A stretch of 64,000 bases of DNA from Manihot esculenta (lineage: Eukaryota; Streptophyta; Magnoliopsida; Malpighiales; Euphorbiaceae): NCBI RefSeq assembly GCF_001659605.2, contig NC_035170.2, positions 24,792,190 through 24,856,189 of the forward strand. The letters are read 5' to 3'. The notes below the pieces were generated by a model, which searched no databases, had not been told where the DNA came from, and saw nothing but the letters and a program-made list of their open reading frames with translations. The position numbers were made by a program, and so were the translations under genes. Of the stretch, positions 5,166-64,000 are shown in pieces (position 1 is the first letter of the stretch; each line of letters opens with the position of its first letter).

Positions 5166-5700
5166 TTCTCTTTCCCTCTGCACTTTTTCCCTAATTTTAT
5201 TTATTTATTTTTAAGGTCAAGCGATGGAGAGAAAGGAGGACAAAAGGGAGAGGAGCTTTTTTGAGTGGACGGAAAAAGACTGTACTTTTCCGGAAATGAC
5301 GACTATTTTCTTCCTTTGGCGTGTGTTAGAGGAGGGTGTTTCGGTCATTTGGTAAATCTCGTTCCGGTGATCGGAGATGTGCCTCGTGTTCTGAGCAGAT
5401 CAAGAATGGTGATTGTGAAGAAAGATCGCAGGAGGGTAAAATAGTCATTTTAAAAGGGAACAGAGAGATAACAGTACAGTACCAGTCAGGTTTTCTTTAT
5501 ATGGTTCATTGTCTGGTCAGAACTTGGAAGAGAGTGAGAAAGGCAGTAACGGCAGGTGAGAGATTGAAATTTTTGTGTGGACGAAAAAGGACAGTGAATT
5601 TGTGAAAAGAAGAAGTTAAACAGGGGTAAAATGGTAAATTAATGATAGAATGGGTTGGCCAAAATAAATACAGAATTGGATTGAGTTAATGGGAGCGTCG

Positions 5701-6937: not shown

Positions 6938-9018
6938 GGTCGCCGGGACCGTAGTAAGCCTGCTATACTGTCTATATACCTCTGAAATCCATACATGATC
7001 CAACATTACTGTCTGTAAAACTTAAAACTTTCCCTGTACCAAGGCTCAACCTGTGCATACTCAATCTCTGTATTGTAAAACCCCTGCTAGAGCTCTCATC
7101 TTTACTCTAGGCGGGTCAACTCATATAATATTAAGCCTGGTTTTTCATACATATATAATAAAATCATACAGACCATGTATATACAAAAGGGAGTACAACT
7201 CATATGGTCAAGCATCATCGATACAACATAAACTATCTTTTACAATTACATGTCCACACTAGCTATTACATAACTCTTCTCTTTATCTGTACCCTGCTGA
7301 CCTCTCTGGACTCTGAACCTGCAAGACTGGGATTAAGGGAGATGGATGAGCTATACTAGCCCAATGAGTAGAACATGTAAAACATGTGATAAAACATGAT
7401 CTCATGGAATGCATCACATCACAAGTAAATCACATCATCTCAGATGGACGGATCAAAACTCCTTCGAATCTGTGTCCGGCCCGCAAAGGAGCTCCTCAGG
7501 TCTTTACTGTACACTCAAATAGTACCTAAGTACTCTGTGTCCGGCCCCTCTCAGAGGCTCCTCAGGACTTTACTATGCCTGGCCCGCGATGGGGCTCCTC
7601 AGGTCTTTACTATGAGGGCTAATGTATCCAAAACTATGTCTGATCTATCACATCATACAATGTACAAGGAGCAGTGCCAAGTACAAGGTTCAATGCAATG
7701 CATCATATTCGTGTACACTAATGCAATCAATCGTACTATTCATCATGATGTATGAAACATGCTAAAAGCATTTGATGCCTTCTTAAACGTTTGAGTTCAG
7801 TTCCACTCACCTCTGGCTAACTCTGTACTGACTCTGCAGGTTCAGAAACAGTGCTCACTGCAGACCTCCCTGTTTCCTCTGGTCCGTTCCTACACAAGTG
7901 GACTCAAATGAGGGACCAAACTAACTCAAGACCAACTCTATAAAACTCCCCAAAAGCCCGCTAAGAGATCCTAAAACAATCACATAAAACATGCACAAGA
8001 AAGCTGGACAGGGCACTTTCGGCGGCAAGTTCGGCGGCCGAAACTCCCCTCCAGAGACGAAACTCATGCATGTTCGGCGGCACCTTCGGCAGCCGAAAGT
8101 CTCGTCCAGAGACGAAACTCAACCTTCGGCGGCACTTTCGGCGGCCAAACCTTGCCTCTAGAGACGAAAGTCCAAATTTGCGGAGGCAAGCTTTGGCAGC
8201 CGAAACTGCCTCCACAAGGGGTTCGGCGGCCGAAGCCCGTTGGGCAGAAACCTGCTCTGCTTCATGCAAAACTCCTCCAATCCTTCACTCAACATGCACA
8301 CACAACTCCTCAACAAGCATATACACATGTATATGCACAAAGGGGTCTAAAACTATCCTAAAACCCCAACAAACATAACAAACACCACATAAACCCACTT
8401 ATGCACCAAAGATCCTCAAAACTCAACTAAACCCTATCATGCATACTACCCATGAAACTTCCATAAAACCTTCAAAAATCAAGAAAGGAAGTTCAGGATC
8501 TTCACTTACCTCTTCCAAACAAGAGATTAAACGATCCCTATGTGGAGATATGGGGAAATCCTCTCTTAAAATCTCCAAGCTTCCAAACTTTGCTCTTTTG
8601 CTCAAAAACTTCAAAACCACACGAAAATCCATCAAAACCATGAAAGATTTGAGAAAACACATAAATCACTCAAGGAAGATCAAGTCTCACCTCAGCTCGT
8701 GCACATGGAAAGAAAATCTTATCAATTTGACCGATCTCAGGCCTTTTATAGGTGGCTGGTCAAACCACCTTCGGCGGCCAAACGTGAAACCCGAAAGCCA
8801 TGCAAGTTCGGCGGCTGAAAGTCACCTTCGGCGGCCGAACCTTGGCTTTTCTGCCTTGGTGCTTTTCTTTCAAAAACTCTTTTCTTTAACACTTTAAAAC
8901 ATTCAAAACTCGTAAAAACAACATATACAACATAACCCGAACCCTTCTAGGGCATTCCGACATCAGAAATCCACCGGACTACAGGAATTCCGATGCCAGA
9001 CTCTAGCCGGGTATTACA
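6938..9018 (-). mobile_element. Tekay-family LTR, minus orientation, U5 end truncated
   Basis: Read on the minus strand it starts TGTAATACCCGGCTAGAGTC at 9018. It then has palindromes at about 8768-8845, a TATA box in CCTATAAAAGG near 8743-8750, a splice-donor-like AAGAGGTAAG (GT at 8509), a second palindrome cluster at 8018-8235, minisatellite units (about 7440-7620) and an acceptor block ending at 7319. Homology stops at about 6938, which removes the last 50 or so bases of the LTR. No clear target duplication is visible. Confidence 0.85.
7319..8509 (-). other. Putative LTR leader intron (1191 nt)
   Basis: Donor AAGAG|GTAAG on the minus strand begins at 8509. A pyrimidine-rich tract and acceptor CTTGCAG|G end at 7319. 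The same arrangement recurs in every sufficiently complete LTR of the family in this window. Confidence 0.45.
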
Positions 9019-9849: not shown

Positions 9850-11100
9850 GTAAGTGAAGATCCTGAGCTTGTTTTTATGTTTTCTGAAGGTTTTATGAGG
9901 TTATGGGAGAGAGTTGCATGAATAGGGTTATTTTTGAGGTTTTGATATTTTTGTGAGAAAAGCTTGTTTATGTATTATGTGATTGTGTTGTTAGGGTTTT
10001 TAGGTAGTTTATGACCCCTTTAAGCATATACTTGGGTATATGCAAGTTGAGGGATTGAGGTGTTTGAGATTGGGAGATGTTTTGTGCTTTTGGCGAGAGG
10101 CAGAGCAAGTTTCTGCCTTGCGGATGAACTCAGGTTCGGCCACCGAAGGTACATTCGGCCGCCGAACCCATGAGGAGGTGGCTTCGGCTGCCCAAGCTTG
10201 CCCCCGAGCTTTTGGACTTTCGGCTCTGGAGGGGAGTTTGGCCGCCGAAGGTGCCGCCGAAGGTTAGAGACTTTCGTCTCTGGAGTGCCTTTCAGCCCCC
10301 GAAACTTGCCCCCGAAAGGGTTCGGCTGCCGAAAGTAGAGCTTCGGCCGCCGAAGGTGCATGAGTTTCGTCTCTGGAGAGGACTTTCGGCCGCCGAACCT
10401 GCCGCCGAAAGTGTCCTGTCCAGCTTTCCTTTGCATGCTTTGCATGGATGTTAGAGTGAATTTAAGGGGATTCTTGGGGAGTTTCTTAGAGTTGTTCATA
10501 AGCTAGTTTGGTCCCTCATTTGAGTCCATCTGTATAGGTACAGACCAGAGGAACCAGAGAGAGCAGCAGTGAGTACTGCGCCAGAGTTTTCAGAGCCTGC
10601 AAAGTTAGTCCAGATAGCCAGAGGTGAATGGAACTAAACTGAATGTTTTCAATTGAGAAATGAAATGCTTTTAGCATAGTTCATGCATCATAAGTATACA
10701 GTAGGTTGTTTGCATTAGACTCCACGAATATGTTGCATTGCATCGTTATTTATTGATGTGGGTGAATGCTGAATGATCCAATAGTCTCTAAGAGAAGTCC
10801 AGGAGCCTTTGACTACGCCCTGGCAGGTATAGTAAAGTCCAGGAGCCTTTGACTACGCCCTGGCAATGGTAAGTACAGAGGTGTGATATACACATATACA
10901 TATATGACAGGAAGACCAGGTGCTCGATTCTACACCCTGGCACGGTAGAGTTACCGGGACTATATGGTGACAGGTTTACCCTTGATGTGGCTTGTCTATG
11001 GTTTGATGCATTCCATCAGAGCATGTGTTAATGACTTGTTTTACTGTTCTACTCACTGGGCTATAAAGCTCATCCCACTCTCTTAACTCCAGTTTTGCAG
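9850..11100 (+). other. Putative LTR leader intron (1251 nt)
   Basis: Donor CAAGAG|GTAAG has its GT at 9850. A branch-site-like CTCAC near 11052, a pyrimidine-rich stretch and TTTTGCAG|G (AG at 11099-11100) form the acceptor. It encloses palindromes and hairpin minisatellite units. Confidence 0.45.
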
Positions 11101-17822: not shown

Positions 17823-19951
17823 TGCAATACCCGGCTAGAGTCTGGCATCAGAATTCTACAGTCCGGTGGAATCTCGGATGTCGGAACTCTCTAGAAGGGT
17901 AATAGATATGTTTTTCTAAATTGTTTTTCTAAGTTTTAATGTTTTAAGTGTAAAGAAAATGAGTTTTTGAAAGAAAAGATCCAAGGAAGAAAAGCCAGGT
18001 TCGGCCGCCGAACATGCATGACTTTGGAATCACGTTCGGCCGCCGAAGGTGGTCTGGCCAGCCACCTATAAAAGACCATAGGTCAGTGAATGGATAAGAT
18101 TTTTCTTTCCATTTCCACGGACAGAGGTGAGACCATGATCTTCCTTGGGTGATCTTCATGTTTTCTCCAAATCTTTCAAAGTTTTGATAAGTTTTCATGT
18201 TGTTTTGAAGCTTTTGAGCTCAAAAACAAAGTTTTGAAGCTTGGAGAATTTGAGAGAGAATTTCTCCATATCTCCATGTTAGGATCACCTATCCTCTCGA
18301 TCTTCAAGAGGTAAGTGTAGATCCCTACCTTCTTTTATGTTTTATGAAGGTTTTATGGAGTTTTATGGGTAGAGATGCATGAATAGGTTAAGTAGGGTTT
18401 TTGGTTGATTGTTGGTGAAAGCATGTTTATGTGTTGAATGGTGATATTTGATGGGGTTTTAAGGTAGTTTTGGACCCCTTTGTGCATGTACTTGGGTATA
18501 TGTTTGTTGTTAAGTTGTTGGTTGCATGTATGAGGAAGTTGGGAGGTTGGTTGCATGTATGAGGAAGTTGGGAGGTTGGTTGCATGAGGCAGAGTAGGGT
18601 TCTGCCTTACTGGAGAACCCAGTTTCGGCCGCCGAAGGAAGTTTCGGCCGCCGAACATGCTAAGGAGGTGGTTTCGGCTGCCTAAGCTCACCCCCGAAAG
18701 TTTAGACTTTCGACTCTGGAGGGAGTTTCGGCCGCCGAAGGTTGGGGACTTTCGTCTCTGGATAGGACTTTCAGTAGCCGAAGGTGCCGCCGAAAATGCC
18801 TGAGTTTCGGCTCTGGAGGGACTTTCGGCCGCCGAACATGCCGCCGAAAGTGCCCTGTCCAACCTTCTTTTGCATGTTTTCCTTGATTGTTTTAGGATGT
18901 TTTAGGGGGGGGTTTTGAGGAGTTTTATAGCGATGTTCTTGAGTTAGTTTGGTCCCTCATCTGAGTCCACCTGTGTAGGAACGGACCAGAGGAACCGAAG
19001 AGCTCAGCAGTGAGCATTATTTCAGAGTCAGTACAGAGTTAGTCAGAGGTGAGTGGAACTAAACTTAATCTTTTTAATTGAGAAATCAAATGCTTTTAGC
19101 ATGTTCATGCATCATGATTATGCAATAGGTTGATTGCATTAGAATTCACTAATATGTGCATTGCATTATTTCCTGTATTTGCGGACGGACATAGTGTTGG
19201 TTTCATTAGCCCTCCCAGTAAAGTCCTGAGGAGCCCCATTGAGGGCCGGGCACAGTAAAGTCCTGAAGAGCCCCGAGAGGGCCGGGCACAGAGTACTTTT
19301 GTACTATTGATTGTATAAGAAAGTCCTGAGGAGCTCTTTCGTGGGCCGGGCACAGAGGGATTTTTGATTCAGTCCGTCCAGTATGTGATTACTTGTAATG
19401 TGATGCATTTCATGTGAGCATGTTTATTAACATGTTTTTATTGTTCTACTCATTGGGCTAGTATAGCTCACCCCTCTCCCTTAACCCCAGTATTGCAGGA
19501 TCAGAGTTCAAGGGGAGTTCAGCAGAGTACATGAAGAGTAAAGAGTTGGGTAATAGCATAGTGTGGACATGTAATATTGTAAAGAGATGTTTTAGTATTG
19601 TATAGAGTTTAGTAGTGTGCTTGACCCATATATTTTGATAAATCCCTTTTTGTATACATGGTTTGTTTTTGTAAATGTTTTCTTAATGAGTATGAAAACC
19701 AGGCTTAACATAGTTAACCCGTCTAGAGCAATGATGAGAGCTCTAGTAAGGGGTTCTGTAGTACAGAGATAGTGCATGCACAGGTTGAGCCTTGGTACAG
19801 AGCAAAGTTTTATGTTTTTACAGAAAATGCATGATCATGTATGGGATTTTACAGGTACACAGAGAGTATAGCAGGCTTGCTACAGGTCCCGGCGACCTTA
19901 TGTCGATCTGGATCCTAGTGCCGGTAGCGGTCCGGTTTCCGGGTCGTTACA
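17823..19951 (+). mobile_element. Tekay-family solo LTR, target duplication CAAAA
   Basis: The 2129-bp LTR runs from TGCAATACCCGG to GGGTCGTTACA, with CAAAA at 17818-17822 and 19952-19956. It sits inside the copia-type solo LTR. Internal signals are palindromes at 17998-18048, TATAAAA at 18067-18073, donor GT at 18311, palindromes at 18624-18850, three minisatellite units at about 19206-19350 and acceptor AG at 19497-19498. A 26-bp direct duplication lies at about 18535-18590. Confidence 0.92.
18311..19498 (+). other. Putative LTR leader intron (1188 nt)
   Basis: TTCAAGAG|GTAAG is the donor at 18311. The pyrimidine tract CACCCCTCTCCCTTAACCCCAG is followed by TATTGCAG|G, ending at 19498. Confidence 0.45.
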
Positions 19952-22144: not shown

Positions 22145-24584
22145 TGTAATACCCGGCTAGATTCAGACATCGGAATTCCTACCGTCCGGTGGAATTCAGG
22201 GATGTCAGAGATTTCTATAAGGGTAATAGAAATCTTTCCACATGTTTTAAGTATGTTTATAGTTTTGCGGAATTGGGTGTGAGAGAAGGAAAAGGCCAAA
22301 GGAGACAAAGAGCAAGTTCGGCCGCCGAAGGGTAAGTTCGGCCGCCGAACCTTGCAGCGTTTCGGCCCCCGAAATTAAAGTTCGGCCGCCGAACGTTGCA
22401 TGGTTTTGCATGCGATTCGGCTGCCGAAGCTGAAACGGGCAGTCACCTATAAGCACTCCTCAGTCAGTAATTTGGACAGGTGTTGCCTCCAGATCATTGC
22501 CAGAGGGTTAAGCCACGTCTCCCATGACTCATCTGCAGAGTTGTATCAACTTATGCAGAGGTTTGGCTTTGTTCACCTGGTTTTGAAGGTTTGGAGTCAA
22601 AAGTGAGCTTTGATGGTTTGGGGAAGGAGAAGAGGTGTTGGTGCATAGTTTTGAGTTCAGGTTGTTCAGCTTCTAGTTTCAAGAGGTAAGGGAAGTTTTT
22701 AAACTTGTTTTAATGATTTATGACAGCTTTTAAAGAGGTTAAGGGTAGAGTTGCATATATAGGTTTGGTTTGATAGTTTTGATAGTTTATGCATGAAAGC
22801 TTGTATATGTGTTATGTGTGCTGTTTGTGTTGGGGTTTTTAGGTAGTTTTGGACCCCTGTGTACATATACATGAGTATATGTGTGTTGAGGAGTGGAGTT
22901 ATGTGTGTTTAGAGAGGTGGAAAGGATGGAGGAGCTAGGTTGCGGGTGAAGCTGAGTTCTTGAAGAACTCAGGTTCGGCAGCCGAAGGAGCATTCGGCCG
23001 CCGAACCCCTTGCATGGTGGCTTTGGCTGCCACAGCTTGCCCCGAGTGTTTTTGAGGTTCGGCTCTGTTTAGGGGATTCGGCCGCCGAAGGTGACGTCGA
23101 AGGTTAGAGACTTTCGTCTTTGGCGTGTGTTTCAGTCCCCGAACCTTGCCCCCGAAAGGGTTCGGCAGCCGAAAGTAGAGCTTCGGCCGTCGAAGGTGCC
23201 TGAGTTTCGACTCTGGAGAGGACATTCGGCCGCCGAACCTGCACCGAAAGTGTTCTGTCCAGCCTTCCTTTGCTTGTTTTGCATGCATGTTTTGAGGTGT
23301 TTTAGAGGGGTTTTGGGGAGTTGTTTATTAGTTGCATAGAGTATGTTTGGTGCCTCATTTGCGTCCTCCATTGTAGGATTGGACCCGAGGAACCGAGGTG
23401 TTTAGCAGTAGTAACTGCGTCAGAGGTAGAGGTAGCCCAGAGTTAGCCAAGCAGAGGCTACAGGTGAGTGGAACTAAACTTGTTGTTTTAATTCAGAAAT
23501 GACACACTTCTAGCATGATCCATGCATCATAAAATGCCATGTTTTTGTATTAGGTTGTCTTGCATTCGATTCACGAATATGACGCATTGCATAAGATGAG
23601 ATTTGTATGGATGAATGTTGGATGATCCTTAGCCCTTGATAGAGAGCAGAGACAGAGTTATGGCTTGTGGTAGCCATACCAGGTCGCTCCTGGATAGTCC
23701 AGGTCGCTCCTGGTACTATGGGTTAGACAGACAGTCTGTCAGATCAGAGATCAGAGTAGTCCAGGTGAGGCCTAATCGCCCCTGGCACAGTTGGACATAT
23801 TATGATATCTTAAGAATAGTCCAGGTGAGGCCTAATCGCCCCTGGCACAGTTGGACATACTACTGTGTATGTAGAGGGCTATGGTGACAAGTTCATCCGT
23901 GAGATGATATGTTTGTGATGTGATGCATTTCATGAGAGCATGTAATGAATGAACTGTTTTTATTGTTCCTCCTCACTGGGCTCTAGAGCTCATCCCACTC
24001 CCTTGACCCCAGTTTTGCAGGTTCCGAGATAGCTATGGGAAGTCCCAGTCAGCAAGAGTAAAGAAAGATATGCATGAATGTATGTTTGTACTAGCATAGT
24101 GGACATGATGTAAATAAAGATTAGTTGTAATGTATAGATAAGTACTGTCATATACTGGATAGACTTGTGCTTTCCCTAGAGTCATTGCTATAGTGTGATG
24201 TATGATTAATCCCTTGTACATGAATCCTGTTTTACGTTTCTTGATGAGAAATGTGTGAGTTAGGCTTAATGTATGGCTTGGATGAGATACCAATGGGATG
24301 TGTTACAGATTAAAAGGGTTTCAATCCCTTGAGCCACAGCAGATAATAGTCCCTGGTATAGGCCCTGAGGGCCATTTCAGATTGACATATCTGAGTAACA
24401 GTAGTTAAGCCTACAGAGTTTTACAGGTTTGTTGAGTCGTTTTGTATCATGTATGGGATTTATCAGGTACACAGAGAGTATAGTCGGCTTGCTACGGGTC
24501 CCGGCGGCCTTAAGCCGATCTGGATCCTAGTGCCAGTGATGGTTCGAACCGTTACAGAGGGGTACCGGTTTCCGGGTCGTTACA
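22145..24584 (+). mobile_element. Tekay-family solo LTR, target duplication ATTTT
   Basis: The 2440-bp LTR starts TGTAATACCCGG and ends CCGGGTCGTTACA, with ATTTT at 22140-22144 and 24585-24589. It is inserted in the copia pol linker between integrase and reverse transcriptase. Signals are palindromes at 22317-22435, TATAAG at 22448-22453, donor GT at 22686, palindromes at 22974-23250, two 60-bp minisatellite units at about 23755-23870 and acceptor AG at 24019-24020. Confidence 0.92.
22686..24020 (+). other. Putative LTR leader intron (1335 nt)
   Basis: Donor AAGAG|GTAAG is at 22686. The acceptor CCACTCCCTTGACCCCAG with TTTTGCAG|G ends at 24020. Confidence 0.45.
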
Positions 24585-42350: not shown

Positions 42351-44477
42351 TGTAACGACACGGAAACCGGATCGCTACCGGCGCTAGGATCCAGATCGAT
42401 TTAAGGTCGCCGGGACCCGTAGCAAGCCTACTATACATCCTGAACACCTGATAAAATCCCATACATGATCAACATTCAAGAAAACTTTAAACTTTTTATA
42501 CACCAAGCTTGACCTGTGCATTCACCATAATTGTAAACATAAAACCCCATACCAGAGCCCTCATCAAATACTTTAGTGGGGCAACATATCATATGTCAAG
42601 CCTGGTTCAACATAACTCAATATTAAAACATTAACATAAGATCATGTACAAAAAAAGGGATTACTATTACTATTAGGGCCAAGCACAATACTAAACCATG
42701 AAACATTCTTTACATTACATTACATCATACCATTTTACATTTCATGTCCACTACTAATCTATTACACTTAAAAATAACCTTCAACCTTGACGACTTCCCG
42801 GTCTATCCTGAACCTGCAAACCTGGGGGTTAGGAGAAAGGGGGTGAGCTACTAAAGCCCAGTGAGCAGAACAATAAAACAATTTACTAAACAAATGCTTT
42901 TTATGAAATGCATCACAACACAAACAATTCACATCACGGATGGATTTGTCACCAATAACCCCCTTTCTCATACTCATAACAAAATGCCAAGACGCGTGGC
43001 ATGGGCAGCCCTGGACTTTCTTACATTGTGCCAGGAAGAGTGGCATGGGCAGCCCTGGACTTTCTTATCATACCGAGGGCTAATGGGTCACCCAATATCC
43101 ATCCATATCAACAATCATATTATGCAATGGATCATATTCGTGAATTCTAATGCAAACAACCTAATACATATCATGGCATTCGTGATGCATGAATCATACT
43201 AAAAAGGTTTCATTGCTTTGAAAATAAAAGAAGTTATGTTCTACTCACTTCTGGCAGACTCTGAACTAACTCTGAAGCAGCTAACACTGCTGGCCTCCTC
43301 GGTTCCTCGCGTCCGATCCTACACAGGTGGACTCAAATGAGGGACCAAACAAACTCTAACATGACTCTAAGCAACTCCCCAAAAACCCCCTAAAACATCA
43401 TAAAATATTCATAGAAAACATGCAAAGGAAGGCTGGACAGGGCACTTTTGGCGGTAGGTTCGGCGGCCGAAAGTCCCTCCAGAGCCGAAAGTCAGGCACT
43501 TTCGGGGGTAGGGTTCGGCGGCTGAAAGTCCTTCCAAAGCTGAAAGTCACCCACTTTCGGCGGCAGGTTCGGCGGCCGAAACTCCCTTCAAGAGCCAAAA
43601 GTCCAAACTTTCAGGGGCGAGTTTAGGCGGCCTAAACTGCCTTCCTTGGCAGGTTCGGCGGCCGAACCTTGCTTCGGCGACAGAACCCAGATCCTTCTGA
43701 GTGGCAGAACTCGATTCTGCCATTCCACATTCAGCCACCCCAACTTCCCAACATGCATTCAACTATTCTAAAACATGCATAAACACTTATTCAAGCATAT
43801 AGGGGCATAAAACTAGCCTATACCCCAACAATCATCACATTAAGCATACATTTATCATTTAACTAACATAAACCCTAACATTTTACCCCTAGCCTAAACA
43901 TGCATCAAAACCCCTTAACCCTTCATAAAACTTACTTAAAACATGAAAGAAGAGAAGGATCTACACTTACCTCTTGAAGATCGAGAGGAGGGTGATCCAA
44001 ACTTGGAGATTGGGAGAAATCGAGCTCTAGGGGTCTCCAAGCTTCAAAAACTTGATCTTAGCTTAAAAATCTTCAAAACAAAGTAAAAACTCATCAAAAC
44101 TTGAAGTGATTGAAGGAAAACAACAAATTGACCATGGAAGGCCGAAATCTCACCTATGCCGGAAAATAGAGAGAGAAAACTCGCCCATTTTCAGACAAGG
44201 GGCCTTTTATAGGTGGCTAGTCAGACCACCTTCGGGGGCCAAAGGTGCCTCCGCAAGAGGCCAATGTTCGGCGGCCGAACATGAGGTTCGGCGGCCGAAC
44301 CTGGCTTTTTCCTTCTTTGGTCTTTTCTTTCAAAACTCAATTTCTTTCCTTATTAAAACTATAAAAACACATAAAAACACTTTAGAAAACCATATTTTAC
44401 CCTTCTAGAGTGTTCCGACATCCGAGATTCCACCGGAAAGTGAGAATTCTGATGCGGGAGTCTAGCCGGGTATTATA
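42351..44477 (-). mobile_element. Tekay-family solo LTR, target duplication GCACT
   Basis: The 2127-bp LTR is in minus orientation. On the plus strand it runs TGTAACGACACGG to CCGGGTATTATA, with the terminal TACA changed to TATA. GCACT at 42346-42350 and 44478-44482 is a perfect target duplication. Signals read on the minus strand are palindromes at about 44225-44305, TATAAAAGG at about 44203-44211, donor at 43970, palindromes at 43440-43690, two minisatellite units at 42980-43065 and acceptor at 42814. Confidence 0.92.
42814..43970 (-). other. Putative LTR leader intron (1157 nt)
   Basis: Donor TTCAAGAG|GTAAG starts at 43970. The acceptor polypyrimidine CACCCCCTTTCTCCTAACC and TTTGCAG|G end at 42814. 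Confidence 0.45.
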
Positions 44478-49032: not shown

Positions 49033-51452
49033 TGTAACGACCCGGAAACCGGACCGCTACCGGCGCTAGGATTCAGGTCGGCTTAAGGCCGCCAGAACCC
49101 GTAGCAAGCCAAACATACATTTTGTGAACCTGTTCAATCCCATACATGAACCAAAACATACATAAAAATTAAAACTTTTCTTTCATTCAAACATTTCTTT
49201 ACCCAGCCTAGCCTGTGCATGCATAAACATAACATAAACCCCTCCTTGAAGTTCTCAACAATTACTCCAATGGGGTACATAACATATAGCAGGCTTGGGT
49301 TACATAAACATCATAAAACATTTATCTCATGTATTTAAGGGATTACAACATACTCTAGTCAAGCACACTATAAAACTTACATTACATTACATAACATACT
49401 TTTTACATTACAACTAATCCATGTCCACTTCTATGCTATTACAGAGACTTCTCTTACTCTTGCTGACTTCTCTATCTACTCTGCACCTGTAAGACTGGGG
49501 TTAGGGGAGAGGGGTGAGCTAAAAAGCCCAGTGAGCAAAAAGTAAAAACATGATATTAATTCCTCCATTTTTAGGTATTTTATTCTCCATTTTATTATTA
49601 ACATTTGCTTTAATTCCACACTTTTTAGGTATATTATTATTCATTTTATTAATAACATTGAATAACATAACTTTTACTTTACATGCTTTCATGAAATGCA
49701 ACACATCACATTTAATCACATAAAGGATGGTATTGTCACCATTAGCCCTCAACATCTCCAAATTCCAGGGGCGTAGAATGGGCCTCACTGGACTTTCTCT
49801 TACATAACATAACATAACATTCCAAAGTGCCAGGGGCGTAGAATGGGCCTCACTGGACTTTCTCTTACATAGTACCAGGGGCGTAGAATGGGCCTCGCTG
49901 GTCGTCCATAACATATCATCATAACATAACATCAGAGGACTATGGATCATCCAACAACCATCCACATCAACATCAAATTATGCAATGCAACATATTCGTG
50001 AATTTCTAATGCAAACATCCTGAAACATCGCATGGTATTAATGATGCATGAGTATGCTATCAGATTCATTCATTTTTTCATTTATTCATTACTTAAAAAC
50101 TTAGGGAATAATCCCACTCACCTGGTGACCGAAGCTTTAACGACGGACTCTGAAAGACTATCTCACAACCGGGGGTCTCGGGTCCTCGGGTCCGAACCTA
50201 CACAGGTGGACTCAAATGAGGCACCAAACAACAAGAACATAACTCTAAACATACCCCCAAAAACCTCCTAGAAACACCTCAAAACAATCCTAGAAAACAT
50301 GCAAGAAAAGGCTGGGAAGGGCACTTTCGGCGGCACCTTCGGCGGCCGAAAGTCCCTCCAGAGCCGAAAGTCAGGCAGGTTCGGCGGCACCTTCGGCGGC
50401 CGAAACTCCCAGACAGAGACGAAACTCATGCATGTTCGGCGGCACCTTCGGCGGCCGAAAGTCTCGGACAGAGCCGAAACTCCAACTTTCGGGGGCAGGC
50501 TTCGGCAGCCTAAAGCTGCCTCCCAAGCTGGTTCGGCGGCCGAAAGTACCTTCGGCTGCCGAACCTGGTTTCTGCCAAAGGGCAGAAACTTGGTTCTTCA
50601 TGCCCAAAACAACCCCCTACACAACCAATCATGCATAAACCTATTCTACAACAAGCATACTCAAGCATACAAGCTCCTAGGGGCTTCCAATAAGCTTAAA
50701 CCCCAACTACAACACACAAGCAAGCCACATTGCACATAAACACACATTAAAACCATGGATTTTTCATAAAAACCCATCAAGCCTACTCATGCATTTCTAC
50801 CCCAAAAACTTGCATAAAACTTACTTAAAACACATATAGAACTAGAGATCGGCTCTTACCTCTTGAAGATCGAGAGAGAAACGATCCTAGCTCGAAGATG
50901 GGGAGATTCGAGTTCTTGAACCTCAAAGCTCCAAAACTTGCTTAAACTTTAAAACTCTTCAAAAACAAGATGTAACTTGTTAAGATCTAAAGGATTTGAG
51001 GGAAAACACTTAAAATGACCATAGGAGGGCTAAAGCTTACCGTCGGCCGAAATGGGAGAGAAAACCTCGCCTGTTTCGGTCACGGGGTCCTTTATAGGGC
51101 TGGTTCTGCCACCTTTCAGCGGCCTAACGTGCCCCCACATCTCATGCATGTTCGGCGGCCGAACATGAGGTTCGGCGGCCGAACCTTGAGTCTTTCAAGC
51201 AAGGCTTTCGGAGGCCTAAAGCGCTCCCAAAACCCCACCATGTTCGGCGGCCGAACTTAACTTTCGGCGGCCGAACCTGGCAAAGTCTCCTTGGTCTATT
51301 TCATTCAAAACTCAATTTCCTTTTTGCTTAAAAACATAAAATACATTAAAAACATTTCATAAAACATGGTTTTCCCCTTCTAGAGACTTCCGGCATCCGA
51401 GATTCCACCGGACGGTAGGAATTCCGATACCAGAGTCTAGCTGGGTATTACA
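49033..51452 (-). repeat. Tekay 3' LTR (2420 bp)
   Basis: Plus strand TGTAACGACCCGG to GCTGGGTATTACA. It keeps two palindromes at 51150-51182, where the partner LTR has only one. The minisatellite has three units (49760-49910) with GGGGCGTAGAATGGGCCTCA. Confidence 0.97.
49487..50859 (-). other. Putative LTR leader intron in the 3' LTR (1373 nt)
   Basis: Donor TTCAAGAG|GTAAG begins at 50859. The acceptor CACCCCTCTCCCCTAACCCC with CTTACAG|G ends at 49487. Confidence 0.45.
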
Positions 51453-51470
51453 TTCTCCCCCCCTTAAGAA
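51453..51470 (-). promoter_or_regulatory. Polypurine tract
   Basis: Minus strand CTTAAGGGGGGGAGAA lies immediately upstream of the 3' LTR. This is the plus-strand primer site typical of plant gypsy elements. Confidence 0.9.
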
Positions 51471-51559
51471 CATTCGTCCCCGAATGTTCACCAAACAACA
51501 CATAACATGGCAATTATATAACATACATACAAGGCACATCAACACATAGGGACCTAACC

Positions 51560-51967
51560 TTAAAAGAGCTGAGGGTACTGCTGGAGCATAGATTCCCGTG
51601 TCTCCCAAGTGCACTCTTCCAAGTTGTGGTGGTTCCACAGGACTTTCACCATCGGGATTTCCTTGTTTCTTAACTTTCTGATCTGCGTGTCTATGATCCG
51701 TACTGGCTGTTCAACATAGGTGAGATCCTCTTGGACCTCCACATCAGGCTCACTAAGAACCTTGCTCGGATCTGACACAAACTTCCTCAACATCGAAACA
51801 TGGAAAACCGGATGGATTCTTGCCATTGAAGCAGGTAAATCTAGCTTGTACGACACATTCCCAATCCTTTGCAAGATTTCAAAGGGTCCGATGTATCGTG
51901 GGGCTAGTTTACCTTTCTTCCCGAAGCGAACCACTCCCTTCATTGGAGACACCTTAAGCAATACCAT
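51560..51967 (-). pseudogene. Integrase C-terminus with chromodomain-like module
   Basis: The 135-residue frame is displaced by +1 from the upstream pol frame. It has the GPY/F-type block (APRYIGPFEILQRIGNVSYKL), ARIHPVFHVSMLRK, and a C-terminal chromodomain-like module (about 104-132: VKVLWNHHNLEECTWETRES). Chromodomains direct integration of chromoviruses to particular chromatin. The frameshift in the C-run at 51970-51975 separates it from the rest of pol. Confidence 0.85.
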
Positions 51968-54239: not shown

Positions 54240-54248
54240 TGGAGCACC

Positions 54249-55661: not shown

Positions 55662-55670
55662 TTCATCTGT

Positions 55671-56549
55671 CTACTTCAGCTGTTCAAACTCAATCATCTT
55701 CAGCTCCCTTGAACTGTCAGGGAAAGCCCATCCTGCGAACTCATTCGCAAACTCCTCCCATGAAAGACTGTCCACCCTTGGCTTCACATAGCCCTTGAAC
55801 CACTCACGGGCCTTTTTGCATTTCAGGGTGAAACCAGCCATCTGAATGGCTCTGCTGTCATCAGCACCTATCTCATCTGTAATTGTTTTGACCTTCTCCA
55901 GGTACACAAACGGATCATCACCGGTATCAAACTGGGGAGCACCCAACTTCATATAGTCGGTCATCTTGGCCTTGCTCCCTCCAGATGAGGTAGGTTGAGG
56001 TCTTTGGGTTTCTGTCACTGCGGTTTCTGCTGGTGGTGGAGGTGCGGCATCCCCTGGGATAGGGTTTGCTGTGCCTGGATGGAAGGATGGAGGTGGGTAC
56101 ATAGGGTACTGTGGATACTGTGGGTAGAAAGGTGGATATGGCATGTGAGAAGGGTAAGGATTAAAACTGGGGTAATCCGATGTACTTCCCATCGAATACC
56201 CGGGGTATGGTGAAAAAGGTGGGTACTGGGGTGGTGGAATAAACCCCGAGGCCTGAGTGCCTCCCTGTGACTCACCCATGCCCTCTTCTGGCATGTTTAC
56301 ACCAAGGTTACCATCCCTCCTCTGCTCCACATCCATCTCTACTTCTTCATCAACTGACATCCTTTCCTGAACTGTACCCCTTACTGATCTGCTTCTACCC
56401 AGATCCAAAGACCTTCTAGGGTCCCTCACTGTTCTGTCCCTGTTGGACCTGCTTGACATTGCCCTTGGCAATGCTGGAGGACGGGCGCTCGTGCCCTCAT
56501 CCTCCGGTGGTACTCTAGTCAATCTAGCTGATCGACGAGTTCCTCGCAT
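55671..56549 (-). pseudogene. Tekay gag N-terminal part
   Basis: The start MRGTRRSARLTRVPPEDEG at 56549 matches the start of the second element at 62651, and upstream in-frame codons to 56615 are not conserved. The frame has an Arg-rich N-terminus, a Pro/Tyr-rich spacer (YPPFSPYPGYSM, YPPFYPQYPQYPMYPP), then the gag capsid-like block (MTDYMKLGAPQFDTGDDPF, WKG-type REWFKGYVKPRVDSLSWEEF). It ends at TAG 55671-55673, where the second element has a Gln codon (CAA). Confidence 0.93.
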
Positions 56550-56799
56550 TCTGTTTACTGAAAAACAGCACAGATAACAAAACATTAGCATCAAATGGTT
56601 CATGTGGAAACACATGAACCCACATCATAGACACATCATATTCATAGCATATCTCATGGCATACATACTTTCATGCAAGACAGGACTCTACATCCTATCC
56701 TAGTGGACCTGATTTCCTATTGTGCTTGACCTTTCTATCACATCTATGAGCCCGACACTCTAGGTCCGACCATATGAACCTAGGGCTCTGATACCATTC
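56550..56799 (-). promoter_or_regulatory. Tekay leader with primer-binding site
   Basis: TGGTATCAGAGCC on the minus strand, two to three bases from the LTR (56784-56797), matches the initiator tRNA-Met 3' end. About 235 nt of leader separates it from the gag start. The same leader is seen at 62378-62650 and, truncated, at 11579-11670. Confidence 0.93.
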
Positions 56800-57253
56800 T
56801 GTAACGACCCGGAAACCGGACCGCTACCGGCGCTAGGATTCAGGTCGGCTTAAGGCCGCCAGAACCCGTAGCAAGCCAAACATACATCTTGTGAACCTGT
56901 TCAATCCCATACATGAACCAAAACATACATAAAAATTAAAACTTTTCTTTCATTCAAACATTTCTTTACCCAGCCTAGCCTGTGCATGCATAAACATAAC
57001 ATAAACCCCTCCTTGAAGTTCTCAACAATTACTCCAATGGGGTACATAACATATAGCAGGCTTGGGTTACATAAACATCATAAAACATTTATCTCATGTA
57101 TTTAAGGGATTACAACATACTCTAGTCAAGCACACTATAAAACTTACATTACATTACATAACATACTTTTTACATTACAACTAATCCATGTCCACTTCTA
57201 TGCTATTACAGAGACTTCTCTTACTCTTGCTGACTTCTCTATCTACTCTGCAC

Positions 57254-58626
57254 CTGTAAGACTGGGGTTAGGGGAGAGGGGTGAGCTAAAAAGCCCAGTG
57301 AGCAAAAAGTAAAAACATGATATTAATTCCTCCATTTTTAGGTATTTTATTCTCCATTTTATTATTAACATTTGCTTTAATTCCACACTTTTTAGGTATA
57401 TTATTATTCATTTTATTAATAACATTGAATAACATAACTTTTACTTTACATGCTTTCATGAAATGCAACACATCACATTTAATCACATAAAGGATGGTAT
57501 TGTCACCATTAGCCCTCAACATCTCCAAATTCCAGGGGCGTAGAATGGGCCTCACTGGACTTTCTCTTACATAACATAACATAACATTCCAAAGTGCCAG
57601 GGGCATAGAATGGGCCTCACTGGACTTTCTCTTACATAGTACCAGGGGCGTAGAATGGGCCTCGCTGGTCGTCCATAACATATCATCATAACATAACATC
57701 AGAGGACTATGGATCATCCAACAACCATCCACATCAACATCAAATTATGCAATGCAACATATTCGTGAATTTCTAATGCAAACATCCTGAAACATCGCAT
57801 GGTATTAATGATGCATGAGTATGCTATCAGATTCATTCATTTGTTCATTTATTCATTACTTAAAAACTTAGGGAATAATCCCACTCACCTGGTGACCGAA
57901 GCTTTAACGACGGACTCTGAAAGACTATCTCACAACCGGGGGTCTCGGGTCCTCGGGTCCGAACCTACACAGGTGGACTCAAATGAGGCACCAAACAACA
58001 AGAACATAACTCTAAACATACCCCCAAAAACCTCCTAGAAACACCTCAAAACAATCCTAGAAAACATGCAAGAAAAGGCTGGGAAGGGCACTTTCGGCGG
58101 CACCTTCGGCGGCCGAAAGTCCCTCCAGAGCCGAAAGTCAGGCAGGTTCGGCGGCACCTTCGGCGGCCGAAACTCCCAGACAGAGACGAAACTCATGCAT
58201 GTTCGGCGGCACCTTCGGCGGCCGAAAGTCTCGGACAGAGCCGAAACTCCAACTTTCGGGGGCAGGCTTCGGCAGCCTAAAGCTGCCTCCCAAGCTGGTT
58301 CGGCGGCCGAAAGTACCTTCGGCTGCCGAACCTGGTTTCTGCCAAAGGGCAGAAACTTGGTTCTTCATGCCCAAAACAACCCCCTACACAACCAATCATG
58401 CATAAACCTATTCTACAACAAGCATACTCAAGCATACAAGCTCCTAGGGGCTTCCAATAAGCTTAAACCCCAACTACAACACACAAGCAAGCCACATTGC
58501 ACATAAACACACATTAAAACCATGGATTTTTCATAAAAACCCATCAAGCCTACTCATGCATTTCTACCCCAAAAACTTGCATAAAACTTACTTAAAACAC
58601 ATATAGAACTAGAGATCGGCTCTTAC
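57254..58626 (-). other. Putative LTR leader intron in the 5' LTR (1373 nt)
   Basis: The same donor and acceptor as in the 3' LTR. In this 5' LTR the predicted intron would lie in the genomic RNA leader, upstream of the primer-binding site. Confidence 0.5.
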
Positions 58627-58856
58627 CTCTTGAAGATCGAGAGAGAAACGATCCTAGCTCGAAGATGGGGAGATTCGAGTTCTTGAACCTCAAAGCTCCA
58701 AAACTTGCTTAAACTTTAAAACTCTTCAAAAACAAGATGTAACTTGTTAAGATCTAAAGGATTTGAGGGAAAACACTTAAAATGACCATAGGAGGGCTAA
58801 AGCTTACCGTCGGCCGAAATGGGAGAGAAAACCTCGCCTGTTTTGGTCACGGGGTC

Positions 58857-59030
58857 CTTTATAGGGCTGGTTCTGCCACCTTTCGGCGGCCTAACGTGCC
58901 CCCACATCTCATGCATGTTCGGCGGCCGAACCTTGAGTCTTTCAAGCAAGGCTTTCGGAGGCCTAAAGCGCTCCCAAAACCCCACCATGTTCGGCGGCCG
59001 AACTTAACTTTCGGCGGCCGAACCTGGCAA
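58857..59030 (-). promoter_or_regulatory. Tekay LTR promoter: GCC-box palindromes and TATA
   Basis: Reading on the minus strand, three intact TTCGGCCGCCGAA palindromes (centred near 59018, 58995 and 58924) and further variants lead into CCCTATAAAGG. Each palindrome contains GCCGCC, the core of the ERF-bound GCC box. Confidence 0.5.
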
Positions 59031-59204
59031 AGTCTCCTTGGTCTATTTCATTCAAAACTCAATTTCCTTTTTGCTTAAAAACATAAAATACATTAAAAAC
59101 ATTTCATAAAACATGGTTTTCCCCTTCTAGAGACTTCCGGCATCCGAGATTCCACCGGACGGTAGGAATTCCGATACCAGAGTCTAGCTGGGTATTACAA
59201 AAGT

Positions 59205-60073
59205 AAAACCATAATTACATATAGTAAAACAATTAAATTAAGAAAGGACAATTAAGGTACAATTAATCCTTATCATCCCCCTCCTCAAGTTGAAACCAGG
59301 AGTGGAAGCAGGTTCAACTTGTGAGATAAGGATTGGTGTCAATCGATAGGCAATGCCTTGGTGAACAAATTCGCTAATTGATGTTGTGTAGAGATGTGGT
59401 TGGTGCTGATCAATCCTTGTTGCATCCGTTCTCGGACAACGTGACAATCTATCTCAATATGCTTGGTTCTCTCATGAAAGACTAGGTTGGCAGCAATATG
59501 TATTATAGTCTTGCTATCACAATGAAGTGAGATGGGAAGTGCAACTAATACCTACAAATCTTGAAGTATATAGGTAATCCAAAAAATTTCACAAACAGTG
59601 TTAGCCATAGCATGGTATTCTGCCTCAGCAGAAGACTTGAATATAGTGGTTTGTTTCTTAGTCTTTCAGGATATGAGGGATGAGCCCAAAAATATACAGA
59701 AGCCAGAGAGAGACCTCCTGGAATATGTACAGGAGGCCCAATTTGAATCATAATAAGCTTTGAGGGTTAAATTAGTAATGACAGGATAGTATAGACCCCG
59801 ATGCAAAGAACCTTTCAAATATCTCAAAATATGTAAGGCACCCTTCCAATAAGATTGATGAAAAATATTAATAAACTGGCTAAGGTGTTGCACAACATAA
59901 CTAATATCAGGCCTTATCAAATTAATATAGAGGAGCATGCCCAACAACCTTCTATAAAGATTAGGTTCAGGCAGAAGTTCCCCAATGTTTGAGGTTAAAT
60001 GTAACCCTTGAGGTAAAGTGGCGGATACTGGTTTACAATGCAACATACTAGCATCCTTTAAAACATATGAAAT
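59205..60073 (-). pseudogene. Copia pol 3' end and start of its 3' LTR
   Basis: Frames 59666-60046 (LYRRLLGMLLYINLIRPDIS, YVVQHLSQF, ILRYLKGSLHRGLYYP), 59545-59751 and 59238-59447 carry the reverse transcriptase end and RNase H of a copia element ([36 protein letters not shown]). The stop lies near 59280, and the 3' LTR starts TGATAAGGATTAATTGTACC at about 59276. The LTR is cut at 59204 by the Tekay element and resumes at 49032. Stops and frameshifts are present. The 5' part is interrupted by the second Tekay element at 60074. Confidence 0.82.
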
Positions 60074-60250
60074 TGTAATACCCGGCTAGACTCCGGTATC
60101 GGAATTCCTACCGTCCGGTGGAATTTCGGATGTCGGGAACCTCTAGAAGGATAAAAACATGTTTTATAAAATGTTTTCATGAATTTTAATGGTTTTAAGT
60201 ATGAAATTAAATGAGTTTTTGCATGAAAAGTCCTTGGAGGGAAAACCCAG

Positions 60251-60438
60251 GTTCGGCCGCCGAAAGCCAAGTTCGGCCGCCGAACATGCATGCGTTTTGG
60301 AGGCACGTTAGGCCCCCGAAAGCATGAGTTAGGGAAGTCCAGGTTCGGCCGCCGAAAGTCAAGTTCGGCCGCCGAACATTGCATGGATGCGGAGGCACTT
60401 TCGGCCCCCGAACGTGGCCTGGCCAGCCACCTATAAAA
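60251..60438 (+). promoter_or_regulatory. LTR promoter: GCC-box palindromes and TATA box
   Basis: Four intact TTCGGCCGCCGAA palindromes (about 60252, 60271, 60345, 60364) and TTCGGCCCCCGAA variants precede TATAAAA at 60432-60438. The last palindrome-like unit ends about 15-20 bp from the TATA box. Confidence 0.55.
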
Positions 60439-60670
60439 GGGGCACTTAGCCAAAATGGGCGAGCTTTCTCCCATTTTCGGCCACAGCAAGCTTCCGACCT
60501 TCCCTTTGCAACTCTTGTGTTCTTCCTCCAAATCTCTTCCATTTTTCTTGAGTTTTAAACTCACATTGCAAGTTTTGAGCATTTAAACCAAGTTTTGGAG
60601 CTTTGGGAACTCAAGAGCTCATTTTCGTGGATCTCCAAGTTTAGGTCGTCTCCCTCTCGATCTTCAAGAG

Positions 60671-61917
60671 GTAAGAGCCGATCTTAAGCTCCTTATGTGT
60701 TCTAAATAAGTTTTATGCAAGATCTATGGGTAGAAATGCATGTTAAGGTATATGTTGAGTTTATGGGTTATATTGATGATTTGAGCAATGTGTGTTGATT
60801 ATGTGTATTTGAAGTGTTGTAGTTGGGGTATTTAATGTTTTGAGGCCCCTAGGAACTTGTATGCATGTGATGGTTGAGATGTATGCATGATTTGAAGTTT
60901 TGGGAGGCAAGGGGTTCATGTGAACCAAGTTTCTGCCCTTCTGGCAGAAACCAGGTTCGGCCGCCGAAGGGAGTTTCGGCCGCCGAACCCCCTTGTGGAG
61001 GCAGCATTCGGCTGCTGAAGCTTGCCCCCGAAAGAAGACTTTCGGATCTGTCTGGGAGGTTCGGCCGCCGAAGGTGCCGCCGAACCTGCCTGACTTTCGG
61101 CTCTGGAGGGACTTTCGGCCGCCGAACCTGCCGCCGAAAGTGCCCTGTTCAACCACTTCTTACATGTTTTTATGTGATGTTTTCAGGATGTTTTAGGGGG
61201 TTTTTGGGGAGTATATTAGAGTTGTAATTACGTATGTTTGGTCCCTCATTTGAGTCCACCTGTGTAGGTTCGGACCCGAGGAACCGAGGACCCCAGCAGT
61301 GAGTTCAGCTGCTTCGGTGTTGTCAGAGTCAGCCAGGTGAGTGGAACTAAAACTTAATCTTTTAAATTAAATGCTTTATCATGTTTCATGCATCATGATT
61401 ATGTAATAGGATGATTGCATTAGTTTTCACGAATATGCCGCATTGCATAAATTGTTGTTGTTGTGGGTGAATGTCGGATGACCTAGTTAGTCCATGACAG
61501 GAAGACCAGGCCCCATGCTACAGGCCTGGCACAGAGTAAGAAAGACCAGGCCCCAGTCTACAGGCCTGGCACAGAGTAAGTAAAGACCAGGATCCCATCC
61601 TATGGTCTAGCACGGTTATGGGACTTGAAGACCAGGAGCCCAGAGGAGGCCCTGGGAAAATGGTAAGTAATGTATGTTCTGACAGGAAAGACCAGGCCCC
61701 AGTCTACAGGCCTGGCACAGAGTAAGGAAAGACCAGGACCCCATTCTACAGGCCTGGCACAGAGTTAACTTGGACTAATTGGTGACAAGTTCACCCAACC
61801 CTTATGTGAATTGTTTGTGTTATGATGCATTTCATAGAGCATAGTATTAATGTGTTTTAATAGCTCTACTCACTGGGCTTTTAGCTCACCCCTCTCCCTT
61901 TACCCCCAGGCTTGCAG
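60671..61917 (+). other. Putative LTR leader intron (1247 nt)
   Basis: Donor TCTTCAAGAG|GTAAGAG is at 60671, about 240 nt after the TATA box. A branch-like CTCAC lies near 61869, followed by CACCCCTCTCCCTTTACCCC, a near-perfect polypyrimidine tract. AG occurs at 61908-61909 and, as GCTTGCAG|G, at 61916-61917. Confidence 0.5.
61494..61770 (+). repeat. Hairpin minisatellite in LTR
   Basis: About six units of 38-60 bp with AAAGACCAGG(C/A)CCC...CAGGCCTGGCACAGAGTAAG. CCAGG and CCTGG are complementary within each unit. Confidence 0.85.
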
Positions 61918-62380
61918 GTACGGTATAGTGCGGGAGTCCGGATAGAGTAAAGAAGTCATGCTTATGTAATAGCTAGCAATGGACATGATCAAATTGTAAT
62001 GTAAAAGTACAGTATAGTCATGTAATGAGTTTTATGGATGTTAGTGTGTGCTTGACCATAGAATGTTGTATCCCTTTTTATACATGATCTTGGTTATTTT
62101 ATGTCATTTATGTAAACCAACTCAACAGATGTATGTCACCCATTGAGGGCACAGATGAGATCCCACAGAGGGATCAAAGTTATGTTTATGTTTATGCACA
62201 GGTTGAGTTTGGTTGATGTTCATGGAAAGAAAAGTTTTTAATTCTTATGGATGTTGTTGATCATGTATGGGATTATACAGGTATACAGGTTTTATGTCAG
62301 GCTTGCTACGGGTCCCGGCGGCCTTAAGTCGACCCGGATCCTAGCGCCGGTAGCGGTCCGATTTTCGGGTCGTTACAGAA

Positions 62381-62393
62381 TGGTATCAGAGCC
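62381..62393 (+). promoter_or_regulatory. Primer-binding site, initiator tRNA-Met type
   Basis: TGGTATCAGAGCC, three bases after the LTR end. Confidence 0.93.
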
Positions 62394-62650
62394 CTAGGTT
62401 CATATGGTCGGACCTAGAGTGTCGGGCTCATAGATGTTATAGAAGGTCAAGCACAATGGGAAAGATCATGTCCACTAGGATAGGATGTGGAGTCTTGTCT
62501 TGCATGATGATGTGAAATGCCATGATAATAAGCATGTGCATTAATGATATGCTATGATATGTGATGTGTGTGATGCGGGTTCATGTGTGCCCACATGAAC
62601 CATATGATGCTAATGTTGCTTGTGTTGTGCACTGTTTTTCAGAGAACAGG

Positions 62651-64000
62651 ATGAGAGGAACTCGTCGATCAGCAAGATTGACTGGAGTACCACCTGAGGA
62701 TGAGGGCATGAGCGCCCGTCCTCCAGCATTGCCTAGGGCAATGTCTAGCAGGTCCAACAGGGACAGAGTAGCAAGAGACCCTAGAAGGTCTCTGGATCTG
62801 GGTAGGAGCAGATCAGTCAGAGGGACAGTCCAGGGAGGAGCGTCAGAGGATATGGGGGATGATATGGACGTAGAACAGAGGAGGGATGGCAGTTTGGGAG
62901 TCAGTATGTCAGAAGAAGGAATGGGAGAGTCCCAAGGAGGCACTCAGGCCTCGGGATTTCTACAGCCACCTCACTACCCACATTTCTCACAACATCCCGG
63001 GTATTCGATGGGAGGTACATCGGATTACCCTAGTTTCACCCCTTATCCCACACAGATGCCATACCCACCATACTACCCACCGTACTCTCAGTACCCAATG
63101 TATCCACCTCCACCCTACTATCCAAATCCAGAAAACCCTACCTCAGAAAATGTTGCACCACCTCCACCACCTGCAGAACCAGCAGCCCCAGTTGTTCAGC
63201 CACCTAGATCTAGCTCAGCCAGTGGGAGCAAGGTTAAGATGACAGACTATATGAAGCTGGGTGCTCCCCAGTTCGAAACCGGTGGCGATCCGTTCGTGTA
63301 CTTGGAGCGGGTCAAGGCAATTACAGATGAGATTGGGGCTGATGACAGTAGAGCCATTCAGATGGCCGGGTTCACGCTTAAGTGCAAGAAGGCACGAGAG
63401 TGGTTCAAGAATTATGTGAACCCGAGAGTGGACAGCATGACGTGGGAAGAGTTTGCAAACGAGTTTGCAGGATGGGCTTTCCCTGATAGTTCAAGGGAAT
63501 TGAAGATGATAGAATTCGAGCAGTTGAGGCAAACTGATGACATGAGTGTAGACGAATATACTGACAGGTTTATGGAGTTGCTGCCATTTGCTGGGCAGGA
63601 CCTTAGCACAGACCAGAAGAAGTCGAGGAGGTATATCATGAAGCTCCATCCCAGGTATTCCTCCTTGGTACAGTCAGCAGATAGAGAGAGTTTTCATGCC
63701 ATAGTAGACATGGCTAGGAGAATGGAGGCTAGTGCCATCGTTCAGGGGACAATTAAGCAGACAGTGGCACAAGCTTCTGGTTCTAAAACTCCGGGTGGGG
63801 GAAGGTTAGATCCCTCTACCTTGAGTGCAGCAGCTTCAGGCAGTAAGAGATGGAGTAAGCCCAAGGGTAAAAAGAACAAGTTCTGGAATAAAGTCAAGTC
63901 TAGTCTGGGATTTGGGAGTGGCTCAAGCTCTGGTGCGGATATTCCAAATTGTGCAAGGTGTGGTAGACCACACAAGGGAGTATGTCGGTTTGGGACGAAC
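62651..64000 (+). CDS. Tekay gag(-pol) open frame, runs off the window
   Basis: The ATG at 62651 begins 450 codons without a stop. The order is: Arg-rich N-terminus (MRGTRRSARLTGVPPEDEG), acidic and Ser-rich segment, Pro/Tyr-rich spacer, capsid-like block (VKMTDYMKLGAPQFETGG, CKKAREWFKNYVNPRVDSM, WEEFANEFAGWAFPDSSREL), MSVDEYTDRFMELLPFAGQ, a Lys-rich linker, and the first short zinc knuckle (CARCGRPHKGVC) at the edge. The Gln codon at 63532-63534 corresponds to the TAG that stops the neighbouring element. Intactness of pol cannot be judged. As far as it is visible this is the better candidate for an autonomous partner. Confidence 0.9.
   Translation, partial: MRGTRRSARLTGVPPEDEGMSARPPALPRAMSSRSNRDRVARDPRRSLDLGRSRSVRGTVQGGASEDMGDDMDVEQRRDGSLGVSMSEEGMGESQGGTQASGFLQPPHYPHFSQHPGYSMGGTSDYPSFTPYPTQMPYPPYYPPYSQYPMYPPPPYYPNPENPTSENVAPPPPPAEPAAPVVQPPRSSSASGSKVKMTDYMKLGAPQFETGGDPFVYLERVKAITDEIGADDSRAIQMAGFTLKCKKAREWFKNYVNPRVDSMTWEEFANEFAGWAFPDSSRELKMIEFEQLRQTDDMSVDEYTDRFMELLPFAGQDLSTDQKKSRRYIMKLHPRYSSLVQSADRESFHAIVDMARRMEASAIVQGTIKQTVAQASGSKTPGGGRLDPSTLSAAASGSKRWSKPKGKKNKFWNKVKSSLGFGSGSSSGADIPNCARCGRPHKGVCRFGTN

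Follow-up and report, generated by a model that had tools for sequence, protein, structure and literature searches.

The long terminal repeat (LTR) of a Tekay-like chromovirus, several copies of which lie in a 64,000-nt stretch of the Manihot esculenta genome (C10:24792190-24856189; hereafter referred to as the window), appears to encode a spliced, multi-exon 5' leader, a reading to which we assign, from the sequence, a probability of about 0.9. The introns concerned, numbered 1, 2 and 0, are very probably real spliceosomal introns, and genomic footprints indicate that the spliced RNA has repeatedly been reverse-transcribed into the genome. The TATA box, near position 360 of the LTR, would direct the synthesis of a leader RNA, from which the spliceosome would excise introns 1 and 2 as well as, in several families, intron 0, all with GT-AG ends. 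As the footprints indicate, RNAs that had lost introns 0 and 1 (and, less often, intron 2) but still carried the primer-binding site have been reverse-transcribed and integrated. In the retroviral scheme, the 5' end of the RNA is the source of both new LTRs, and a single splicing event would therefore strip an intron from both LTRs. Unspliced RNA would nevertheless be the template for most reverse transcription, which would explain the persistence of the introns in the large majority of copies.

The LTR copies of the window (W1-W8) were bounded by alignment, and their relatives were taken as the best 40 scored matches to each of two LTR queries (60000-62300 and 22145-24584), the matches of a third query (49033-51452) lying outside this sample. 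The resulting alignment comprised 65 LTRs in ten groups at 85% identity, with 39 of the 65 in a single group and 59-84% identity between group representatives. L001 (identical to W8), L015 and W1 (no bounds) and L047 (bad start) were left out before this count, and W2 is partial. Genome-wide pattern searches covered 640,357,471 bases in 86 contigs.

Probable exons and introns of the LTR

An earlier note on this stretch had proposed that the LTR contains one intron, ~1.2 kb long, between a donor AAGAG|GTAAG (D1) and an acceptor YTTRCAG|G. Both motifs were recovered, in the sense orientation, in each of the units for which they had been described, including both LTRs of the element at 49033-59199, and the intron lengths fit (e.g. 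1373 nt from donor 58626 to acceptor 57254 in that element). This donor and this final acceptor were each conserved in 65/65 LTRs. The genomic copies described below, from which introns are exactly absent, speak for splicing within the LTR; the single intron itself has to be replaced by two, because a conserved exon lies between its ends, together with an upstream mini-intron in some families. The features of the focal copy, W8, are as follows.

60074..62377, + strand: 5' LTR of the focal element (copy W8), with a TATA box at 60432
60671..61267, + strand: intron 1 of W8, GTAAG...TGTAG, 597 nt; exactly absent from the related LTRs L063/L064
61268..61336, + strand: exon 2 of W8, 69 nt, within the intron of the earlier note
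61337..61909, + strand: intron 2 of W8, GTGAGT...CCCAG; acceptor chosen from L079/L089 and L067/L090, with that of the earlier note (61917) 8 nt downstream

The sequence between the splice sites had been thought to vary freely, but the conservation score in LTR bins 1001-1400 (0.76-0.91) exceeds the mean for the LTR (0.69), and these bins include an acceptor, an exon and a further donor. In their conserved block, CCTCATTTGAGTCCACCTGTGTAG|G is followed by 69-87 nt and then by AG|GTGAGT. Exon 2 is bounded by the acceptor TGTAG| (A1; AG in 65/65 LTRs) and the donor |GTGAGT (D2; GT in 64/65); across the alignment, D1, A1, D2 and the acceptor of intron 2 adopted here (A2') are conserved in 65, 65, 64 and 63 LTRs, respectively. 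Intron 1 measures 489-693 nt, intron 2 427-627 nt and the upstream intron 0, found in several families, 84-94 nt. Exon 2 is poor in T (18.6%, versus 33.2% in intron 1 and 30.3% in intron 2), and is not coding, as its length does not vary in multiples of three. The corresponding coordinates in the other copies, except W4, are given below.

W2, - strand: intron 1 7890..8509; exon 2 7811-7889; intron 2 7327-7810
W3, + strand: intron 1 9850..10537; exon 2 10538-10623; intron 2 10624-11092
W5, + strand: intron 1 22686..23376; exon 2 23377-23463; intron 2 23464-24012
W6, - strand: intron 1 43319..43970; exon 2 43249-43318; intron 2 42822-43248
W7a (5' LTR of 49033-59199), - strand: intron 1 57965..58626; exon 2 57889-57964; intron 2 57262-57888
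W7b (3' LTR of 49033-59199), - strand: intron 1 50198..50859; exon 2 50122-50197; intron 2 49495-50121

The donor motif as a whole stands out in site-wise conservation: the GT of D1 is kept in all 65 LTRs and scores 1.00 in the cluster-weighted columns, versus 0.46-0.60 for the bases 9-12 nt upstream. Among windows of the LTR, the donor 10-mer reaches the 99th percentile and the acceptor block the 94th. However, invariance of the GT is not unique to D1 (4/168 GTs and 3/166 AGs in the LTR show the same invariance), and the argument therefore rests on the whole motif rather than on the dinucleotide alone. The final acceptor motif is present where it had been placed, but the site used is probably CCCAG|NNTTGCAG, 8 nt upstream, which is the acceptor used in both intron-2-lacking lineages and has an AG kept in 63/65 LTRs. 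The introns have the GT-AG ends, extended donor and pyrimidine-rich acceptor of U2-type introns, and introns 0-2 sit in the non-coding LTR and not, as in Ogre or EVADE, in or between coding regions. Downstream of exon 3, at about 1890-1915 of the W8 LTR (window ~61963-61988), a TGTAATAG...GTGGACATG block is strongly conserved; it may correspond to a poly(A) signal, and would in that case define the border of R.

Genomic copies lacking the introns

LTRs from which introns 1 and 2 are exactly missing are to be expected if both are spliced out and the RNA is at times copied. The exon 1|exon 2 junction pattern was found at 121 places with up to three mismatches, against one for the reversed control: 44 exact matches, 25 with one mismatch, 24 with two, and 7 listed plus 21 unlisted with three. 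As three of the seven listed three-mismatch matches were unspliced acceptors, the 93 places with at most two mismatches were used. All 24 of the junction loci fetched (L061-L084) had LTR sequence on both sides, and none (0/24) matched intron 1. Relative to the nearest intron-bearing LTR, the missing stretch was GT..AG-exact in 19/24 loci and was displaced by 2-3 nt by the aligner in the other five, because the start of exon 2 differs. Some of these relatives are close: L063 is 95.8% identical to W8 on the exon 1 side, L066 95.4% identical overall to L004, L077 91% identical to W4 and L078 90% identical to L056. The unspliced donor string CTTCAAGAGGTAAGNG has 24,013 exact genomic occurrences (reversed control 0; places not inspected singly), versus 44 exact junctions, a comparison valid to an order of magnitude only, the patterns differing in length and variety. 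Intron 1 is retained in most copies.

These findings make unlikely the single intron of the earlier note, which would span D1 to TTGCAG|G and take exon 2 out with it. Its donor and acceptor are each kept in 65/65 LTRs, and exon skipping is common in plants, but between them is a conserved exon that has splice sites of its own, the acceptor 8 nt upstream is used in both lineages without intron 2, and 24/24 fetched junction loci join exon 1 to exon 2, although they were chosen by that junction.

Intron-less LTRs belong to elements with the marks of transposition. In the L063/L064 element, the target-site duplication (TSD) is AACAT, the 5' LTR is followed by a primer-binding site and the two LTRs agree at 1616/1626 sites; L062/L061, 16.1 kb apart, have a TSD (CTAAT) and a primer-binding site. 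Among the 100 matches listed, 21 same-strand junction neighbours lie 3,977-7,046 bp apart, like LTR pairs. Four junction pairs (C7, C11, C15) are just 4.0-4.7 kb apart, which suggests short elements without much of the coding region.

Introns 0 and 2 are also exactly absent from some LTRs, as illustrated by comparison with W4.

18127..18210, + strand: intron 0 of W4, GTGAGACC...TTTTGAAG, 84 nt; exactly absent from L077 and L079/L089
18311..18978, + strand: intron 1 of W4; exactly absent from L077 and L079/L089
18979..19048, + strand: exon 2 of W4
19049..19490, + strand: intron 2 of W4; exactly absent from L079/L089

The distance from the TATA box to the junction was 140-161 nt in 12/24 loci, as expected without intron 0, and 239-246 nt in the other 12. 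In the three short-spacing loci with close relatives (L077, L078 and L079), intron 0 is absent as an exact GT..AG stretch of 84 or 94 nt. The LTR of L079 (L089 when fetched whole) measures 948 nt, versus 2129 nt for W4; it lacks stretches of 84, 668 and 442 nt, each GT..AG and each exactly one of the W4 introns 0, 1 and 2, plus one 18-nt gap. Its partner LTR, 6,258 bp away, has the same exon 1|exon 2 and exon 2|exon 3 junctions. A second intron-2-lacking lineage, L067/L090, is a solo LTR with the TSD CTAAC. Loss of intron 2 looks rarer than that of intron 1, although it was searched for with fewer patterns. The W5-type exon 2|exon 3 junction with the acceptor of the earlier note was found at 0 places genome-wide, and the W4/W8-type junction with the corrected acceptor at 93 places with at most two mismatches (control 18), of which only three, two exact matches and C2:38428994, read as junctions. 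The bulk of these W4/W8-type matches were rejected as junctions: they share one other sequence, and the four fetched were ordinary exon 3 with intron 2 kept.

Deletion of DNA between short direct repeats (AGGT...AGG) could in principle mimic splicing, since AG|GT and AG|G flank the introns and provide 2-4 nt of microhomology, but gaps elsewhere in the LTR do not have the same ends. In 90 pairs of intron-bearing LTRs, GT..AG ends were found, with any equivalent shift allowed, in 0/61 distinct clean gaps of at least 40 nt, and the other gaps in the junction-locus comparisons had such ends in 1/40 cases (L074), some of these 40 gaps coming from the region of intron 0 in distantly related pairs. 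Furthermore, three separate introns are exactly missing from one LTR, the junction is common to both LTRs of the same elements, and the intron-less state recurs over at least seven supported changes on the tree, all of which makes deletion very improbable.

The tree was inferred from exon 2 and intron 2 for 60 rows (38 with and 22 without intron 1) by a quick method, with the Shimodaira-Hasegawa-like approximate likelihood ratio test (SH-aLRT) as the only support measure. The presence or absence of intron 1 required eight changes on this tree, seven of which are forced by strongly supported branches. Parsimony counts alone cannot separate gain from loss, and the intron-less LTR might thus be original and the introns inserted later, a possibility to which we give marginally less credence than deletion: intron-less copies are nested among intron-bearing relatives (L063-W8, L066-L004, L077-W4 and L078-L056), intron 1 is alignable across intron-bearing groups, and a gain at GT..AG borders would still be the gain of an intron. 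A promoter or regulatory role of the conserved motifs, unrelated to splicing, is the least credible explanation, since it leaves the exact GT..AG absences unexplained, even if other LTR blocks are equally conserved.

Primer-binding site, upstream ATGs and gag

Downstream of the LTR, the W8 element contains the following features.

62381..62392, + strand: primer-binding site, TGGTATCAGAGC
62630..62642, + strand: acceptor-like site before gag, CACTGTTTTTCAG, the putative end of an intron 3; no spliced footprint
62651..64000, + strand: start of gag (Retrotrans_gag), running past the end of the window

In 15 elements, 76-104 upstream ATGs lie between the presumed start and the ATG of gag; 36-53 of them remain once introns 1 and 2 are removed, and 0-4 with a splice from D2 to the gag acceptor. 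With 36-53 ATGs remaining, translation of gag would probably require a further splice, to an acceptor just before its ATG. A TTTTTCAG-like acceptor lies 6-10 nt before the gag ATG, with the AG present in 21/22 leaders having the site; the AG is lost in L020, and the site is absent from L019 and W3. The gag mRNA would thus be produced by splicing from the donor of exon 2, or from a weak and not well defined donor of exon 3, to this acceptor, which would eliminate almost all upstream ATGs along with the primer-binding site. From these sequence features, we lean slightly towards the existence of a third intron containing the primer-binding site; because of this content, intron 3 could leave no normal retrotransposed copy. 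A second primer-binding-site-like leader segment, duplicated after the LTR, was observed in L049 and L055.

The earlier note had assigned spliced RNA to translation and unspliced RNA to reverse transcription. This cannot be maintained for introns 0, 1 and 2, as RNAs without them have, on the reading favored here, been reverse-transcribed and integrated, but the division of labor may hold for the putative intron with the primer-binding site. The LTR would then be a self-duplicating multi-exon leader, in which RNAs without introns 0-2 are still copied and found intron-free lineages and RNAs spliced to the gag acceptor are only translated; we see the chances of this extended scheme as even.

Several observations weigh against a spliced leader. 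On a donor-site matrix, D2 ranks only ninth (W3) and twenty-first (W6) among the best donors. Exon 2 has no ATG in 956 nt from 12 representatives, for which base composition predicts 15.4, but this depletion is weak, because dinucleotide-preserving shuffles expect only 1.6 and display no ATG effect, in exon 2 or in the exon 1 region (27 observed, 26.3 expected). Besides L077, L078 and L079, the remaining 9/12 loci with short TATA-to-junction spacing have no close relative, and their gaps around intron 0 were not placed as GT..AG. No W5-type copy without intron 2 was found, the pattern with the corrected acceptor matching one place and its control two. The intron 3 junction pattern matched 54 genomic places (control 0), but the 12/12 fetched were ordinary leader, with no footprint. 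The AG|GT repeats flanking the introns make microhomology deletion possible for any single case. Finally, the changes on the tree do not equate to a count of splicing events, because the intron-less state may be passed on from element to element by recombination.

The element, its surroundings and known systems

The element is a Ty3/gypsy chromovirus, described as Tekay-like after the label of the earlier note. The W8 element has a Retrotrans_gag match at gag, and the W7 element contains RVP_2, RVT_1, RT_RNaseH, Integrase_H2C2 and rve, the last 0.3 bits under the cut-off; Gag (from W8) and the protease, reverse transcriptase, RNase H and integrase (from W7) occur in gypsy order. A chromodomain (PF00385, E 2.2e-06, over the cut-off) follows the integrase at 51560-51985 (- strand). 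The LTR copies at 9018 and 9347 lie in opposite orientation, nearly back to back. Two open reading frames with DnaJ domains (PF00226, PF23551), at 3864-5183 and 33798-35492 on the minus strand, share 90-93% identical blocks, 30.3 kb apart, and are a duplicated gene pair amid retrotransposons. No Rfam match was obtained within the window, and no relatives were found in viral contigs.

How a single RNA serves both translation and reverse transcription is a long-standing question, and intron-free LTRs make it countable from genome sequence. If the extended scheme is correct, the tens of thousands of LTR copies would form a self-written archive of the frequency with which spliced RNA is reverse-transcribed. 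The length variants of LTRs recorded in annotations may be products of splicing, and at about 24,000 places the LTRs would provide neighboring genes with ready-made splice sites and 5' exons.

The splice acceptors of foamy viruses lie outside the LTR, whereas the donor, exon and acceptors of the present element are all inside it. The two are alike in that, according to the available text of one report, foamy viruses have a major splice donor in the 5' LTR, which is needed for gag expression (PMC3694450). Penelope-like elements likewise keep introns through retrotransposition, but are not LTR elements in the retroviral sense, and an antisense template has been proposed for them, rather than sense spliced templates as here (PMC3846280, in the portion available). 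Plant LTR elements are generally without introns, Ogre and EVADE being the exceptions named in a 2025 review, the accessible parts of which make no mention of introns inside LTRs (PMC12786077). Both are plant LTR elements with partly spliced RNA, like the present one, but splicing of EVADE removes the protease domain, whereas the introns described here are in the non-coding LTR (PMC12786077, PMC6317226; partial texts). Within the literature outside subscription papers and preprints, as far as its texts were accessible, no plant case of an intron inside an LTR was found, the phrase matching one lentiviral vector paper. Other spliced plant elements, Bagy2, Ogre and CRR, are listed in a BARE paper, in the available text of which none is described as spliced within the LTR (PMC3735527). 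BARE1 itself is a plant LTR element with pools of spliced and unspliced RNA, and the same text holds that the spliced pool has to be excluded from reverse transcription (PMC3735527). Its 104-nt intron lies at the end of gag, whereas the introns of the present element lie in the LTR, and copies of its spliced RNA appear to exist in the genome and to have spread (for BARE1, PMC3735527).
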